64,000 nucleotides of DNA from Pseudomonadales bacterium. GTDB lineage: Bacteria > Pseudomonadota > Gammaproteobacteria > Pseudomonadales > Ketobacteraceae. Shown piece after piece: positions 369 through 55,899 of this stretch; within the stretch, counting starts at the first letter, position 1; every line of letters starts with the position of its first letter. The stretch covers positions 62,001 to 126,000 of the forward strand of contig PAPM01000007.1 of assembly GCA_002708905.1 (NCBI GenBank). The letters are read 5' to 3'. A program made the position numbers and the translations under genes. The notes beneath the pieces are model-generated. The model worked only from the letters and a program-made list of their open reading frames with translations. It searched no databases and was not told the origin of the DNA.

Positions 369-680
369 TCAGGGCGTGAGATGCCGGGCGACATCCAGGT
401 AGGTCTTGGTATTGCTTCGACTTTTTCCCAAGGAGCTTAATTGCTTAACAGTCTGCTCCTTGGCCTCAGACACAGCGACTACGGCCTTGCTGTAGATATC
501 AATCAGTTGCTCCAACTCAACAAGCACGCTGGAAAGGTCTTCACTATCACCGCCCAGCGTCGGAAGTTTGGCTCTCATGAAGACTTCGCACTCCGTGCTG
601 GCCTCCTTTAGCTCGGCAAAATTCTGCTCCGCGAGCGATCGCTCTATCCGGTCCCGAAAACTGATAACCTCTTCCAACAT
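369..680 (-). CDS. FliT-like flagellar chaperone (FleP-type), 103 aa
   Basis: A small helical protein rich in Glu, Leu and Lys, encoded 6 bases downstream of fliS. A gene of this size at this position in Pseudomonas-type clusters encodes FliT/FleP, the cytoplasmic export chaperone for the cap protein FliD. No catalytic motif is expected or seen. Sequence conservation in the family is poor, so the call rests on length, predicted all-helical composition and the fliD-fliS-X-fleQ order. The start ATG at 680 follows fliS closely, suggesting co-translation. Confidence 0.65.
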   Translation of the reverse strand: MLEEVISFRDRIERSLAEQNFAELKEASTECEVFMRAKLPTLGGDSEDLSSVLVELEQLIDIYSKAVVAVSEAKEQTVKQLSSLGKSRSNTKTYLDVARHLTP

Positions 681-686
681 GCCCGT

Positions 687-1112
687 TCACTCACTCATTG
701 CATTGGATTCGGGGGTATAGATCTGGCGGGCTTGATCGGCAATACCATCCCAGCCGGCCTTGATCTCTTTCAGCAGGCCAATCACTTCCTCGACAGGCGC
801 CTTGTCATGCTCCTTTGAAGCATCAAACAGACGAACACTCATATAGTCGTAGAGACTGTCCAGATTCTTGGCAATCTCGCCGCCTTTTTCGTGATCCAAA
901 AAGCCCTGCAGGCCGCCTAAGATGGTAATTACCCTTCCCAGGTGACGACCTCGACCTTCAAAATCATCACGATCAATGCAACCAATTGCTTGCTGCAGGT
1001 TGTCCAGTGCGCCTTGATATAACATACCAATCAGCTGATGGGGGTTTGCACTTTCCACACCGGTCTGTTTGTTCATCTGCGCGTACTGTTGAGCGCCTTT
1101 GGCTACATTCAT
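687..1112 (-). CDS. fliS: Flagellin export chaperone FliS
   Basis: FliS binds the C-terminus of flagellin in the cytoplasm and prevents premature polymerisation before export. The protein carries the family's N-terminal YAQ...VESANPHQLIGMLY pattern (the PxxLIxMLY motif of FliS) and has the usual length of about 140 aa. I start it at the ATG at 1112 because an AAGGTGAG ribosome site sits 7-8 bases upstream. A GTG at 1121 lies inside that site. It follows fliD directly, as in most polar-flagellum clusters, and is co-transcribed with fliD from the FliA promoter at 2684-2710. Confidence 0.93.
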   Translation of the reverse strand: MNVAKGAQQYAQMNKQTGVESANPHQLIGMLYQGALDNLQQAIGCIDRDDFEGRGRHLGRVITILGGLQGFLDHEKGGEIAKNLDSLYDYMSVRLFDASKEHDKAPVEEVIGLLKEIKAGWDGIADQARQIYTPESNAMSE

Positions 1113-3276: not shown

Positions 3277-4827
3277 TTAACCCAGCAGTGACAAAGCTTG
3301 TTGAGGCAAGGCATTAGCCTGAGCCAGAACCGAGATGCCTGCTTGCTGCAATACCTGGTTCTTGGACAAGTTGGCCGTTTCTGCCGCGAAGTCCGCATCA
3401 CGGATTCGGCTGTTGGCGGCAGCCAGACTCTCAGACACTGCAGACAGGTTACGAATGGTGGATTCAAATCGGTTTTGAATCGCACCCAAACCTGCGCGGA
3501 AGGAGTCGATCTGAGCCAGCGCGCTGTCTACAGATTCCATGGTGATGTTGGACGCTTCCACAGTAGTGATGTCTGCGTTAGCGATGGTACCAACGGCCTG
3601 AACGTTCTGCTCATCAGCAGCACCACCTGCAAGCGCACCAGCTACCGTAATAGTATCCTGAGCAGAAACAATTACTTGACCACCTTTAAAGCCGTCACCA
3701 GCGTTGGCGAGTGCGGTAATATCAGTGGCATCTGCGGTATCGCCACCATCAAACAGCAGGTCTTCAGCATCATTTGCAGTAACAATGACCATATCGCGGC
3801 CATCAACAGCATCTAACTGCAGATAACCATTTTCGTCGACAGACGCCACAACACCGGTAGTGCTGGTTTTAGCGTTAATGGCATTTACCAAAGAACCATC
3901 GGCATCTTTCTCCTGTACATCAACAGGACCAATATCCACACCGTTGATTTCTAAGTCGCCGTTCGCCAGTGAACCCGCGCCAACATACCCATTAGCCGCG
4001 GTTGCACCAGTTACGTCGGTGTAATTAAAGTTGTTTACCGCCGTAGCATAAACCCCTTCAGTGCCTTCTACACCTTCCTCGCGTAACGAGTTAATTCGCT
4101 CCGCGAGCAGCTTGGCCACACCGGAACCGTAGTCATTAGAAGTGGTATCCTGCAGATTCGCAGCCGTTGGGGCAGTAATTACGCCACCGTTTTCTGCTGT
4201 CGTTAATTCTACAGCTGTACCGTTGGCACCAATCTGAATGGTGTTACCTGCGCCAACAGCGATATCAGTACCTGCAGTAATTTCTGCGGAAGTAGACTGA
4301 ACTGCACCAGGCTGGCTACCGAGAGCGCTGGCGCGAGCGTCAACGCCATCAACCGCAACTGTTTCACCGGCGTTGGCACCGATCTGGAAGCTCAATGAAC
4401 TCAGAGAGCCGTCTGCTACATTGTTACCGTTAAAGGTAGTGGTTTTGGCAATACGATCGATTTCAGATACCAGCTGATCAACCTCTTCCTGTAGGGACTG
4501 ACGGTCAGCAGCACTGTTGGTATCGTTGGCAGACTGAACCGCCAGGTCACGAATACGCTGTAGAGAAGTAGTAATCTCGTCCAATGCACTTTCAGTGGTC
4601 TGGGCGAAAGAAATACCGTCGTTAGCGTTTCGAACCGCAACGTTCAAGCCGCGAATCTGGGTGGTGAATCGGTTGGAGATGGCCAGGCCGGCAGCATCAT
4701 CCTTGGCGCCGTTAATACGCAAACCAGAAGACAAACGCTGCAGGGAGGTCTGGAGAGAACCCTGCGACTTGTTCAGGTTACGCTGCGCATTAAGGGACGA
4801 AATGTTGGTGTTAATGATCTGGGGCAT
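3277..4827 (-). CDS. Flagellin A (filament subunit), 516 aa
   Basis: Structural subunit of the flagellar filament, exported through the hollow filament. The N-terminal D0/D1 region (about residues 1-170, starting [18 protein letters not shown]) and the C-terminal D1/D0 region (about residues 435-516, ending [14 protein letters not shown]) are highly conserved. The middle (about 170-430) is long, acidic and Ala/Gly/Thr/Asp-rich and forms the surface-exposed variable domains. It is a tandem paralogue of the next flagellin gene at 5093-6631. The two share almost identical ends but diverge in the centre. It has its own FliA promoter (4934-4960) and an SD-like GGAGACAC before the ATG. FliS should chaperone its C-terminus. 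Confidence 0.97.
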   Translation of the reverse strand: MPQIINTNISSLNAQRNLNKSQGSLQTSLQRLSSGLRINGAKDDAAGLAISNRFTTQIRGLNVAVRNANDGISFAQTTESALDEITTSLQRIRDLAVQSANDTNSAADRQSLQEEVDQLVSEIDRIAKTTTFNGNNVADGSLSSLSFQIGANAGETVAVDGVDARASALGSQPGAVQSTSAEITAGTDIAVGAGNTIQIGANGTAVELTTAENGGVITAPTAANLQDTTSNDYGSGVAKLLAERINSLREEGVEGTEGVYATAVNNFNYTDVTGATAANGYVGAGSLANGDLEINGVDIGPVDVQEKDADGSLVNAINAKTSTTGVVASVDENGYLQLDAVDGRDMVIVTANDAEDLLFDGGDTADATDITALANAGDGFKGGQVIVSAQDTITVAGALAGGAADEQNVQAVGTIANADITTVEASNITMESVDSALAQIDSFRAGLGAIQNRFESTIRNLSAVSESLAAANSRIRDADFAAETANLSKNQVLQQAGISVLAQANALPQQALSLLG

Positions 4828-4933
4828 TGTGTGTCTCCTGCGTTTATTTCAACACGACCTCAACAACTGAGGACTTATTCGATTGGTGTAGCCTCTGTGA
4901 GGCCGTGTCACTTCAATCTTCCGTTCAGTAGTT

Positions 4934-4960
4934 TTATCGGCCTGGTTTCACACAACTTGA
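4934..4960 (-). promoter_or_regulatory. FliA (sigma-28) promoter for flagellin A
   Basis: The minus strand reads TCAAGTT-N12-GCCGATAA, matching the Pseudomonas-type FliA consensus (TCAAG-type -35 and GCCGATAA -10). It lies about 107 bases upstream of the flagellin A start, leaving a leader of roughly 100 nt. Confidence 0.88.
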
Positions 4961-5030
4961 TCAAATATTTAAACCTTTTAGTTACATATTCTCACTTTTT
5001 TATAGCTGTCACGAGCCACATATAACAAAA

Positions 5031-38195: not shown

Positions 38196-38381
38196 TTACA
38201 TATCGTGATCAGGTGTCTTCTCGCGCTGGATGCGCTGATAGATTTCCTCGCGGTGAACCGCAACCTCTTTTGGCGCGTTCACGCCGATTCGCACTTGATT
38301 ACCCTTAACACCCAATACGGTCACAGTGACTTCATCACCGATCATTAAGGTTTCGCCCACTCGGCGAGTCAAAATAAGCAT
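38196..38381 (-). CDS. csrA: Carbon storage regulator CsrA (RsmA)
   Basis: A dimeric RNA-binding protein that recognises A(N)GGA motifs, usually near ribosome-binding sites, to control translation and mRNA stability. The 61-aa sequence starts [18 protein letters not shown] and contains [28 protein letters not shown]. The RNA-contact residues Leu4 (LTRR) and Arg in the VHREEI motif are present. It lies downstream of lysC and before tRNA-Ser, as in Pseudomonas. Its antagonists are probably the two small RNAs at 54001-54650. Confidence 0.97.
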
Positions 38382-53669: not shown

Positions 53670-53993
53670 ATGACATTCGTTGTTACCGATAACTGCATCA
53701 GATGCAAATACACGGACTGCGTTGAAGTTTGTCCGGTGGACTGCTTCTACGAAGGACCCAATTTTCTGGTAATTCACCCCGATGAGTGTATCGACTGCGC
53801 TCTGTGTGAGCCGGAATGCCCTGCCAATGCCATTTACTCAGAAGATGAAGTGCCGGCTGACCAACAGCAGTTCATCGAACTGAACGCTGAGCTGGCCGAA
53901 ACCTGGCCAAATATCACCGAGAAGAAAGACTCCCTGCCTGACGCTGAAGAGTGGGATGGTGTGGAAGGTAAGATTCAATACCTGGAAAAATAA
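53670..53993 (+). CDS. fdxA: 7Fe ferredoxin FdxA
   Basis: Small electron-transfer protein of the Azotobacter ferredoxin I type. Cluster cysteines are in [21 protein letters not shown] (3Fe-4S/4Fe-4S ligands) and [12 protein letters not shown]. The acidic C-terminal tail is typical. At 107 aa it is the usual length. The order mutS-fdxA-(small RNA)-rpoS matches Pseudomonas, where rsmZ lies in this gap. Confidence 0.95.
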
Positions 53994-54000
53994 TTCAGAC

Positions 54001-54120
54001 AAAAAAGAAGGGCGGTTTTTACACCGCCCCACCTCGCTTGGATATCCTTACCCAGGCATCCTGCCTAAACGTCCTTGACGATCATCCTGATCGTGTCCCT
54101 CAGATCAGCGTCCTGCCGAT
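54001..54120 (-). ncRNA. Short GGA-rich CsrA-sequestering sRNA (RsmY/Z-like)
   Basis: About 120 nt on the minus strand. It has six GGA motifs, several in hairpin loops: ACGATC-AGGAT-GATCGT (6-base stem) and AGGC-AGGAT-GCCT, which are classic CsrA/RsmA sites. It ends in a terminator GGGCGG-N8-CCGCCC (54010-54030) with a T-rich tail. A -10 TACTAT is at 54127-54132, and a GacA box lies about 180 bases upstream at 54291-54308. It sits between fdxA and rpoS, the locus of rsmZ in pseudomonads. Confidence 0.8.
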
Positions 54121-54126
54121 GAATTA

Positions 54127-54132
54127 ATAGTA
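54127..54132 (-). promoter_or_regulatory. -10 element of the short sRNA
   Basis: TACTAT on the minus strand, 6-8 bases before the predicted start near 54120. No convincing -35 hexamer is present, which fits an activator-dependent (GacA) promoter. Confidence 0.6.
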
Positions 54133-54290
54133 ACCCAAACAATTCGATACGCTAGCACTACAATTTGAAACAAACCCAACTCGACTGTCCGACAAAACCT
54201 CTTATCCCTATATAGATCAAAGAATTACGATAGCCAATTTGGCTTAGGAGGTGGGGTATTTGAGGAGAAAAGACGACTCTCGCACACCAA

Positions 54291-54308
54291 TGTAAGAAAT
54301 TTCCTACA
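54291..54308 (-). promoter_or_regulatory. GacA upstream activating sequence of the short sRNA
   Basis: TGTAAGAAATTTCCTACA, a close match to the GacA site TGTAAG-N6-CTTACA (one change, CTTACA to CCTACA). Its centre is about 180 bases upstream of the predicted start, the same distance as reported for rsmZ of Pseudomonas. Confidence 0.8.
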
Positions 54309-54369
54309 CAGCTGGGAGATTATGTCCTATGATGATTTTAACGATTAATTCGGAACAAATTCTTTGGAC

Positions 54370-54650
54370 AAAAACAAAGAAGGGCGGTTTAACCGCCCAC
54401 CTCGCTTCGAATCTTCCTGATCCTGTTTGCTTTGCTTCCGTTCCTGCTAAATCCTGCTTCTTTCCCTGACCGGCGTTCCTCTGCCTGAATCCGTTTCCAT
54501 CCTGGATTGCCGCAAATTCCGTTTGCAGCTCCTTTTCGCTTCCCTGCGGTAGTCCTTTACCCAATCCTGTTTCCTTCCTGGAAACTCCGTGCTAATCCCT
54601 TGAGGCTCCTGCCATCAGCTCTTCCTGAACTGGCCAACATCCTGTCGACA
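54370..54650 (-). ncRNA. Long GGA-rich CsrA-sequestering sRNA (CsrB-like)
   Basis: About 280 nt on the minus strand with 22 GGA motifs, mostly CAGGA, AGGAA or ACGGA spaced roughly every 10-20 bases. This density and size are those of CsrB in enterobacteria and Vibrio, not of the short RsmY/Z RNAs. It ends in GGGCGG-TTAAA-CCGCCC and a T-rich tail (54369-54398). The last 40 bases (from AAGCGAGGTGGG onwards) are nearly the same as in the short sRNA. A -10 TAGACT is at 54657-54662, and a perfect GacA box lies about 170 bases upstream. Confidence 0.8.
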
Positions 54651-54656
54651 AGGAGT

Positions 54657-54662
54657 AGTCTA
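54657..54662 (-). promoter_or_regulatory. -10 element of the long sRNA
   Basis: TAGACT on the minus strand, upstream of TACTCCTTGTCGACAGGATG. This aligns with the start region of the short sRNA (both read ...TC-G(G/A)CAGGA after the -10). No clear -35 element is seen. Confidence 0.55.
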
Positions 54663-54782
54663 CTTGATCGTTCATCAGGGACAATTACCCGGAAGCACCG
54701 ACCAGATTCTGAGACGACACCAGAATGCCTGTTTTTCTATATAAATCAGTGAATTGCCTAACCCTTACCGGCATAACCCTGG

Positions 54783-54805
54783 GTAAGTTTTATACAAGAA
54801 CTTAC
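54783..54805. repeat. Additional GTAAGTT/AACTTAC dyad next to the GacA box
   Basis: GTAAGTT-N9-AACTTAC lies 5 bases from the GacA site. It shares the GTAAG/CTTAC half-sites but with 13 rather than 8 bases between them. It could be a second GacA-dimer site or a site for another regulator. Confidence 0.5.
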
Positions 54806-54810
54806 GCTAA

Positions 54811-54828
54811 TGTAAGAAATATCTTACA
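54811..54828 (-). promoter_or_regulatory. GacA upstream activating sequence of the long sRNA
   Basis: TGTAAGAAATATCTTACA, an exact match to TGTAAG-N6-CTTACA. It lies about 170 bases upstream of the predicted start of the long sRNA, with no gene between them. Confidence 0.85.
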
Positions 54829-54900: not shown

Positions 54901-55899
54901 TCAGCCTCCGAAGATAGCTTCCCCGGTCAGACCCTGCTTTTCCAAGAGGTCTCTTAAGCGCTTCAGCGCTTCCACCTGAATCTGGCGGACCCGTTCACGA
55001 GTCAGGCCGATTTCAAGGCCCACCTCTTCCAGGGTGCTCATTTCGTAGCCTCTCAAACCAAAGCGGCGGGCAATCACTTCCCGTTGCTTGCTCGGCAGCT
55101 GATCCAGCCAGTAATCGATGCTGTAACGGAGGTCGGCATCCTGGAGCAGTTCTGCGGGGTCTGAAACGTTGGTATCTGCGATGGTATCAAGGAGGGACTT
55201 ATCAGAATCATGAGCCATCGGTGTGTCGACCGATGATACTCGCTCATTCAGGCCAAGCATGCGCTTCACATCGTCCAGGGGCTTATCCAGCAGCTCCGCG
55301 ATCTCTTCGGCGCTCGGCTCATGATCCAGCTTCTGGGTCAACTCACGGGCAGCCCGCAGGTAAATATTCAATTCCTTGACCACATGAATGGGCAGACGGA
55401 TGGTGCGGGTCTGGTTCATAATCGCCCGCTCGATGGTCTGGCGAATCCACCAGGTCGCATAGGTAGAGAAACGGAAACCCCGCTCAGGATCGAATTTTTC
55501 CACTGCCCGAATCAGGCCGAGGTTACCCTCTTCAATCAGATCCAGCAGCGATAAGCCCCGATTAACGTAGCGGCGGGCAATCTTGACCACCAACCGCAGG
55601 TTACTCTCGATCATCCGCTTGCGGGCATCTTCATGGCCGCGCAGAGCTCGGCGGGCGTAATACACCTCTTCTTCAGGCGTAAGAAGCGGAGAGAAGCCGA
55701 TTTCGTTCAGGTAAAGTTGAGTGGCGTCCAGTGTCTTCTGCATACCTGGCTGGGCAACAAAAGAATCGTCGTCAGCGTCGTCAGACCCACTGCGTTTATC
55801 ACGCAGTTCCGCAGCACGCTCCTCGAACGCGTCCTCCAGTTCCGAGTCCTCTTCCACAAAATCCAGGTCTAGGTTTTCTTCCCGTTCTGCTTGAATCAT
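54901..55899 (-). CDS. rpoS: Stationary-phase sigma factor RpoS (sigma-38)
   Basis: Directs transcription under stress and in stationary phase. It has sigma region 1.2/2 ([51 protein letters not shown] then [27 protein letters not shown]), region 3, and region 4 with an HTH ([28 protein letters not shown]). An acidic N-terminus of about 50 aa precedes region 1.2. At 332 aa it is like Pseudomonas RpoS. nlpD lies upstream in the same direction, so rpoS probably also has a promoter in nlpD. Confidence 0.97.

Follow-up and report, generated by a model that had tools for sequence, protein, structure and literature searches.

The closest described counterpart of the locus studied here is that of RsmZ in Pseudomonas (PrrB/RsmZ, Rfam RF00166), where the RNA gene lies between fdxA and rpoS. 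According to the accessible text of earlier reports, the neighbours of rsmZ include fdxA, mutS, rpoS and nlpD (PMC4353343), and the fdxA-rsmZ organisation is conserved (PMC9788540). The accessible part of the latter report also presents CsrR2 of Alcanivorax dieselolei, a CsrA-related RNA from an RNA-seq study that adjoins a ferredoxin gene and has six unpaired GGA. Tandem genes rsmX-1/rsmX-2 occur in Pseudomonas brassicacearum, F113, P. stutzeri and P. syringae and are GacA-dependent by northern blot in P. brassicacearum; as far as the available text goes, these RNAs are all about 107-113 nt long, 75-85% identical and at another locus (PMC7911923). In the available part of another study, csrB2/csrB3 of Aliivibrio salmonicida, which lie side by side, and csrB3/csrB4 of Vibrio tasmaniensis are copies made by duplication; they are described as similar, those of A. 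salmonicida as recent, and those of V. tasmaniensis are not described as neighbours (PMC6262261).

We analysed a stretch of 64,000 nucleotides (the window) from a Pseudomonadales bacterium. Its gap of about 900 bases between fdxA and rpoS contains two consecutive small-RNA units on the minus strand (Table 1). Both RNAs lie between rpoS and fdxA and read towards fdxA, as in those Pseudomonas loci that have both genes in reach. In the first-pass annotation, two such units had been proposed, and the GacA palindrome, -10-like element and intrinsic terminator of each were found where it had put them. That the gap holds two genes for CsrA-sponge RNAs is well supported by these predicted features, and both RNAs likely sequester CsrA. 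The locus shares its neighbours, orientation, upstream GacA palindrome, GGA hairpins and a similar terminator with the RsmZ locus of Pseudomonas, but it carries two RNAs, both below the Rfam cut-offs, whereas the Pseudomonas gaps read have one; the earlier statement that Pseudomonas usually has a single RNA at this locus agrees with every Pseudomonas fdxA-rpoS gap tested. CsrR2 is likewise a single RNA, in contrast to the two found here. In the parts of the sources available, rsmX-1/rsmX-2 resemble our pair as tandem Gac/Rsm sponge RNAs but lack its short/long split, and the csrB duplicates are similar copies, whereas our pair is lopsided and, unlike the V. tasmaniensis copies as described, adjacent. 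Tandem Rsm/Csr RNAs are already known, and what is unusual is a lopsided short and long pair kept in several related genera. The new part is this long-kept pair with its contrasting evolution, not a categorically new system. A literature search of titles and abstract openings, with subscription journals mostly outside its coverage, gave no short and long pair at the rpoS-fdxA locus among the matches listed, which is weak evidence of absence.

Table 1. Features of the fdxA-rpoS gap, its flanking genes and csrA (positions in the window)
Feature	Position	Strand	Basis or remark
fdxA (ferredoxin)	53670..53993	+	flanking gene; NCBIfam FdxA_Protbact 181 bits, cut-off 135
short RNA, RsmZ-like, ~120 nt	54002..54122	-	6 GGA (5 AGGA); start inferred from -10
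short-RNA intrinsic terminator GGGGCGG..CCGCCC + T tail	54009..54030	-	terminator scan
short-RNA -10-like element TACTAT	54127..54132	-	begins 176 nt after box start
short-RNA GacA-box palindrome TGTAGGAAATTTCTTACA	54291..54308	-	genome pattern search
long RNA, CsrB-like, ~279 nt	54372..54650	-	22 GGA (14 AGGA); start inferred from -10
long-RNA intrinsic terminator GGGCGGTTAAACCGCCC + T-rich tail	54382..54398	-	inside motif GCGAGGTGGGCGG
long-RNA -10-like element TAGACT	54657..54662	-	begins 166 nt after box start
long-RNA GacA-box palindrome TGTAAGATATTTCTTACA	54811..54828	-	genome pattern search
rpoS	54901..55899	-	flanking gene; NCBIfam RpoS 517 bits, cut-off 394
csrA	38196..38381	-	presumed target protein; sole Pfam CsrA match in genome

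To classify the two RNAs, we compared them with Rfam. At the gathering level neither was reported, so permissive Rfam scores and a covariance model of our own were used. The long RNA matched CsrB (RF00018) with 52.8 bits (E 3.3e-13; gathering score 71), and the short RNA matched PrrB_RsmZ with 31.6 bits (E 2.7e-5; gathering score 44). The covariance-model check put forward with the first-pass annotation returned two of the families that it had named, but both scores fall below the gathering level. The long RNA is like CsrB in size (~280 nt), GGA number (22) and E value, and differs from it in the sub-threshold score, the rsmZ locus and an rsmZ-type terminator. The short RNA also matched the CsrB family (23.7 bits), whereas the Rfam RsmZ family, at E up to 0.001 in the own genome, matched only the short RNA and not the long one.

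The GGA content of the RNAs was then compared with shuffled sequences, since an excess over composition had been named as a check of the earlier reading. For the long RNA, the annotated size and count proved right, and the 22 GGA exceed the 11.7 found in dinucleotide shuffles (reached by 0/2000); within the window, 279-nt stretches with 22 GGA occur only over the long RNA. The short RNA shows no excess by raw count (6 GGA vs 4.5; 467/2000 shuffles reach it, and 61/500 for the body alone), so for this measure the outcome named beforehand as refuting the earlier reading did occur. It does show one by AGGA (5 vs 1.0; 3/2000) and by position, as the loops of stems with 5 or more pairs hold five of its six GGA (1/500 controls with GGA held in place). 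The fold of the short RNA is better than that of shuffles (z -3.43; 1/200 as good). Instead of the two AGGAT hairpin loops annotated before, its consensus fold gives four small hairpins, three of them with an AGGA loop, followed by the terminator. Five pairs of this fold are changed on both sides, compared with 1.5 in shuffles (0/500) and at most 1 when slid; these compensatory changes, from only six close sequences, are supportive of the fold but no proof. Support for a fold of the long RNA is weak (z -1.42; 14/200 shuffles as good). When all long RNAs were pooled, 45 of 155 GGA were in loops, where 17.7 were expected and 500 controls gave 31 at most, while the enrichment is weak in four of the single genomes, being reached by 165 (G001), 133 (G005), 53 (G009) and 90 (G011) of 500 controls.

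We also considered whether the GGA-rich stretch could be a small protein gene. Open frames exist, one of 86 aa at 54304-54564 (-) and one of 81 aa at 54507-54752 (+), and the nearest relative, G002, partially matches them over 71 and 53 residues. However, the remaining genomes searched gave only weak matches or short ones, most of which fall on the terminator; the frames have TTG starts, and within the genus the length of the RNA body ranges from 188 to 308 nt. The coding reading, whose probability is negligible, was rejected on these frame matches in the genomes searched. A joined RNA species spanning both units is unlikely, though less so. The two units are on the same strand, with 63 nt from the long-RNA end (as cut) to the next box, the T-tail of the long unit is interrupted (TTCTTTGTTTTTG), and the available text on PrrH offers a precedent (PMC4211561), but the terminator stem of the long unit is kept across the genus.

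To characterise the promoters, we searched the 5.4 Mb genome for the GacA palindrome. The pattern, TGTRNGANATNTCNYACA with at most one mismatch, was composed after the boxes of the relatives had been inspected; it occurs at three places, two of them in the fdxA-rpoS gap, and a reversed control pattern gave one match per strand. The third palindrome (G000:C6:24042-24059) is outside the window, flanked by an ion-channel-like frame and by one of unknown function. The plus-strand stretch read near it contained no GGA-rich RNA, and we took it as a chance match. In the gap, the palindromes had been annotated about 170-180 bases upstream; the distances from box start to -10 are 166 nt (long) and 176 nt (short). 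As RNA starts for the cross-genome comparisons were placed by hand, promoter geometry was based on box-to--10 distances. In the long unit this distance is 162-166 nt in eight of eight genomes (G000-G005, G009, G011), and the -10 is TAGACT, TAGAAT or TACACT in all eight; in the short unit, TANNAT lies 174-176 nt past the box start in six of six genus members, these -10 patterns having been selected with the sequences already in view. A simple sigma-70 scan gave no promoter on the minus strand of the gap; activator-dependent promoters may be without a -35. Both units would be turned on by phosphorylated GacA bound to their palindromes, which lie ~165-185 bp before the start.

The other parts of the pathway were located in the genome. 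GacA is encoded directly upstream of uvrC (333 bits, cut-off 280), and one kinase is prominent as BarA/GacS-like, its 818 bits being well above the 465 of the runner-up but below the cut-off of 890. The family match to CsrA is at the place given in the first-pass annotation. At E 0.001 the short-RNA model matched the own genome at the short RNA and over the 3' part of the long one, with no third copy. The fdxA-rpoS pair is the only GacA-boxed sponge-RNA source detected, and weaker sponge RNAs may exist elsewhere in the genome. From these sequence features we infer that both units would be transcribed, controlled by GacA and induced together, and that their RNAs would bind CsrA; by presenting GGA sites to this single CsrA, they would release its target mRNAs.

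To determine how widely the pair is kept, we examined the 57 genomes that a search for relatives returned, the own genome among them; 15 are of the same family. Nine of the 15 family genomes returned have two boxed GGA-rich units between the two flanking genes: all six of the genus (G000-G005), G009 and G011 of genus g5, and G013 of g4. The layout had been called unusual, and it does have two units where the Pseudomonas gaps tested have one, but with nine family genomes it is no one-off. Of the 15, G007, with 54% completeness, and G012, with 84% and a best FdxA match of 65% identity, allowed no judgement. The RNA pair of G009 is separated from rpoS by a 472-aa frame that we take to be pyruvate kinase. 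The CsrB family was matched in only 3 of the 57 relatives, which reflects sequence turnover and not absence; it was direct reading of the gaps that revealed the pairs.

Other family genomes have one RNA. Three further g4 genomes (G008, G010, G014; loci L123, L125, L128) carry just one RNA, 244-253 nt long and containing 15-17 GGA, together with a relic terminator of the lost rpoS-side unit beside rpoS; the short-RNA model matches this relic in G008 and G010, and in G014, where it is much decayed, it was recognised by eye. In G006 (genus g2; L139, G006:C1), a single putative RNA of 611 nt with 40 GGA lies ~0.2-0.8 kb downstream of fdxA and has grown by eight copies of the 14-nt unit AAGGAAGCTAGAGC; no rpoS turned up within the 13 kb examined. 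Within one family, RNAs at the fdxA locus therefore range from ~120 to a putative 611 nt, and the latter exceeds the '100 to more than 400' nt that the available text of one report gives for the sponge-RNA family (PMC6262261).

We then compared the conservation of the two copies among the six genus members. The mean pairwise identity was 0.73 for the short-RNA body, 0.49 for the inter-unit spacer and 0.31 for the long-RNA body, the last against 0.29 for shuffled pairs. The long-RNA body cannot be aligned, so neither a covariance model nor a tree was made for it. Despite this turnover, the long RNA keeps its GGA excess, which is present in nine of nine genomes (at most 1/500 shuffles reach it), and its box-to--10 distance in eight of eight. 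The change in the long unit is saturated and goes beyond that of the neighbouring spacer, and only its terminator remains in G008, G010 and G014 (in G014 by eye), as would be expected of a decaying copy of little function beside a short RNA that alone matters. This is very unlikely, as the GacA box, the box-to--10 spacing and the -10 are retained and all nine long RNAs have the GGA excess, features that decay would lose.

These differences bear on what the pair does. If redundant copies merely add CsrA-binding sites, differences in size and sequence are meaningless. Such pure dosage fits the relatives that make do with one RNA, namely the three g4 genomes with a relic terminator and G006 with its long putative RNA; for P. 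brassicacearum, the accessible text of PMC7911923 suggests redundancy among its four Rsm RNAs. We give pure dosage somewhat less than an even chance, because the two copies are under opposite constraint in the same genomes, and it is not obvious how dosage alone could keep just one of them fixed in sequence. A division of labour under selection, which we put forward tentatively and with less confidence, would combine a short RNA of fixed hairpins with a 'sequence-free' bulk sponge selected for GGA number alone and result in a two-slope titration of the one CsrA from a single locus. The short RNA would then set a precise, perhaps structured CsrA complex, or have a second task such as base-pairing. 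Graded or two-stage titration of CsrA by the pair, as suggested in the first-pass annotation, is a fair hypothesis. Such a pair lets one ask, as in a natural experiment, which properties a protein-sponge RNA has to retain: the two copies share genomes, locus and promoter type, and one keeps sequence and fold, the other only GGA density. It may also show the interconversion of short RsmZ-type and long CsrB-type RNAs.

To further investigate the origin of the two RNAs, we built a covariance model (R1) of the short RNA from the six genus members only; the short copy of G011, whose terminator is changed, was left out of the short-RNA statistics and is diverged (17.1 bits with the model). In the own genome, the model scored 32.2 bits (E 1.3e-6) over the 3' part of the long RNA. 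Across the genus it matched the long RNA in G000, G002, G003, G004 and G005 (26-35 bits) and weakly in G001 (17.5 bits), scores to be read against 24-30 bits off the locus. It also matched five of five hand-picked Pseudomonas rsmZ (fdxA) loci (24-31 bits). Both units share the terminator motif GCGAGGTGGG(G)CGG in all six genus members. There and in G009, GCGAGGTGGGCGG closes the long unit and GCGAGGTGGGGCGG the short unit; the terminators are alike yet each has its own form, so they are not being homogenised. On the shared terminator design and the model match, the two RNAs likely stem from an old tandem duplication of rsmZ that preceded the split of genera g1, g4 and g5.

This duplication step is weakened by the off-locus model matches and by the silence of the RsmZ family on the long RNA; with five off-locus places at 24-30 bits, the 26-35 bits that the long RNA scores cannot decide on common descent. 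The CsrB family, which matches both RNAs, is a further point against an origin from rsmZ. The first-pass annotation had described one RsmY/Z-like and one CsrB-like RNA, and the best Rfam families are RsmZ (31.6) and CsrB (52.8), both below cut-off, but the two separate lineages that this description suggests are less likely than a tandem rsmZ duplication. The long RNA is probably a long rsmZ paralogue and not a CsrB orthologue, despite its CsrB-like size and GGA load. Taken as a whole, our best explanation, which we consider quite probable, is that both units encode CsrA-sequestering RNAs that would derive from an old rsmZ tandem duplication, be induced by GacA and have diverged since. The rsmZ gene would have duplicated in tandem at the conserved rpoS-rsmZ-fdxA locus, and the copies would have diverged, the short one keeping its fixed four-hairpin fold and the long one retaining only a high GGA number while its sequence and length varied freely.

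In all, 132 fdxA loci were read inside and outside the family, at most 130 of them distinct (L002 = L124, L042 = L151). Under a strict box test, two boxed units were found only in the source family (10 rows, 9 genomes); 28 loci had one boxed unit and 94 none, the latter including loci that have an RNA but a weaker box. By a box-free test based on terminators, 57 of the 132 loci qualified, with a terminator-bearing GGA-rich stretch no more than 2.2 kb from fdxA. Two such terminators more than 160 nt apart occurred in 12 of these 57 rows, namely eight family genomes (nine rows), L153 (G035), L057 and L008. In Halomonas lysinitropha (L057), the terminators are 107 and 396 nt from fdxA, each with at least 5 GGA in the preceding 130 nt, and a further RNA pair is possible there. 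In Pseudomonas veronii (L008), the second terminator is 1.7 kb away, with 6 GGA and 1 AGGA.

In two further families of the order, the fdxA-rpoS gap likewise contains two GGA-rich units, the second lacking a GacA box. These box-less second units lie beside fdxA in family f22 (L153, G035; L190, G075), where the unit can be aligned end to end between the two species, and in family f33 (L161, G046), where it was read by eye and scored 25.5 bits with the short-RNA model. Each is possibly a GacA-independent sponge beside a GacA-dependent one. Among 293 genomes of the order, the short-RNA model gave a match in 18, nine in the family and nine outside. Four of the nine outside matches adjoin fdxA (G035, G046, G075, G087). 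At the other five, which scored 24-30 bits, the 3 kb retrieved contained neither fdxA nor rpoS; a weak score of the model is therefore unspecific.

Several further observations were made during this comparison. An extra half-site, [TC]GT[AGC][AGC]G, stands directly downstream of both boxes of the pair (54801-54806 and 54281-54286, minus strand). A half-site occurs 4 or 5 nt past the GacA palindrome in 33 of 39 boxes, Pseudomonas among them, and any single offset was common to at most 4 in shuffles, the loci being related and hence not independent; a second half-site lies 23 nt upstream of the box start in 11 of the 39. The available text of the one matching paper in a literature search makes no mention of an extra half-site beside the palindrome. 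In the family genome G012, a CsrB-like RNA (37.8 bits) with a GacA-type palindrome upstream lies at 615-907, minus strand, of the 7.7-kb contig G012:C260 (L176), among whose frames neither fdxA nor rpoS was recognised by eye. At ~4480-4990 of G021:C77 (L175), a very GGA-rich stretch of ~0.5 kb has two overlapping CsrB matches (55 and 52 bits) and is followed by what is presumably a tRNA gene.
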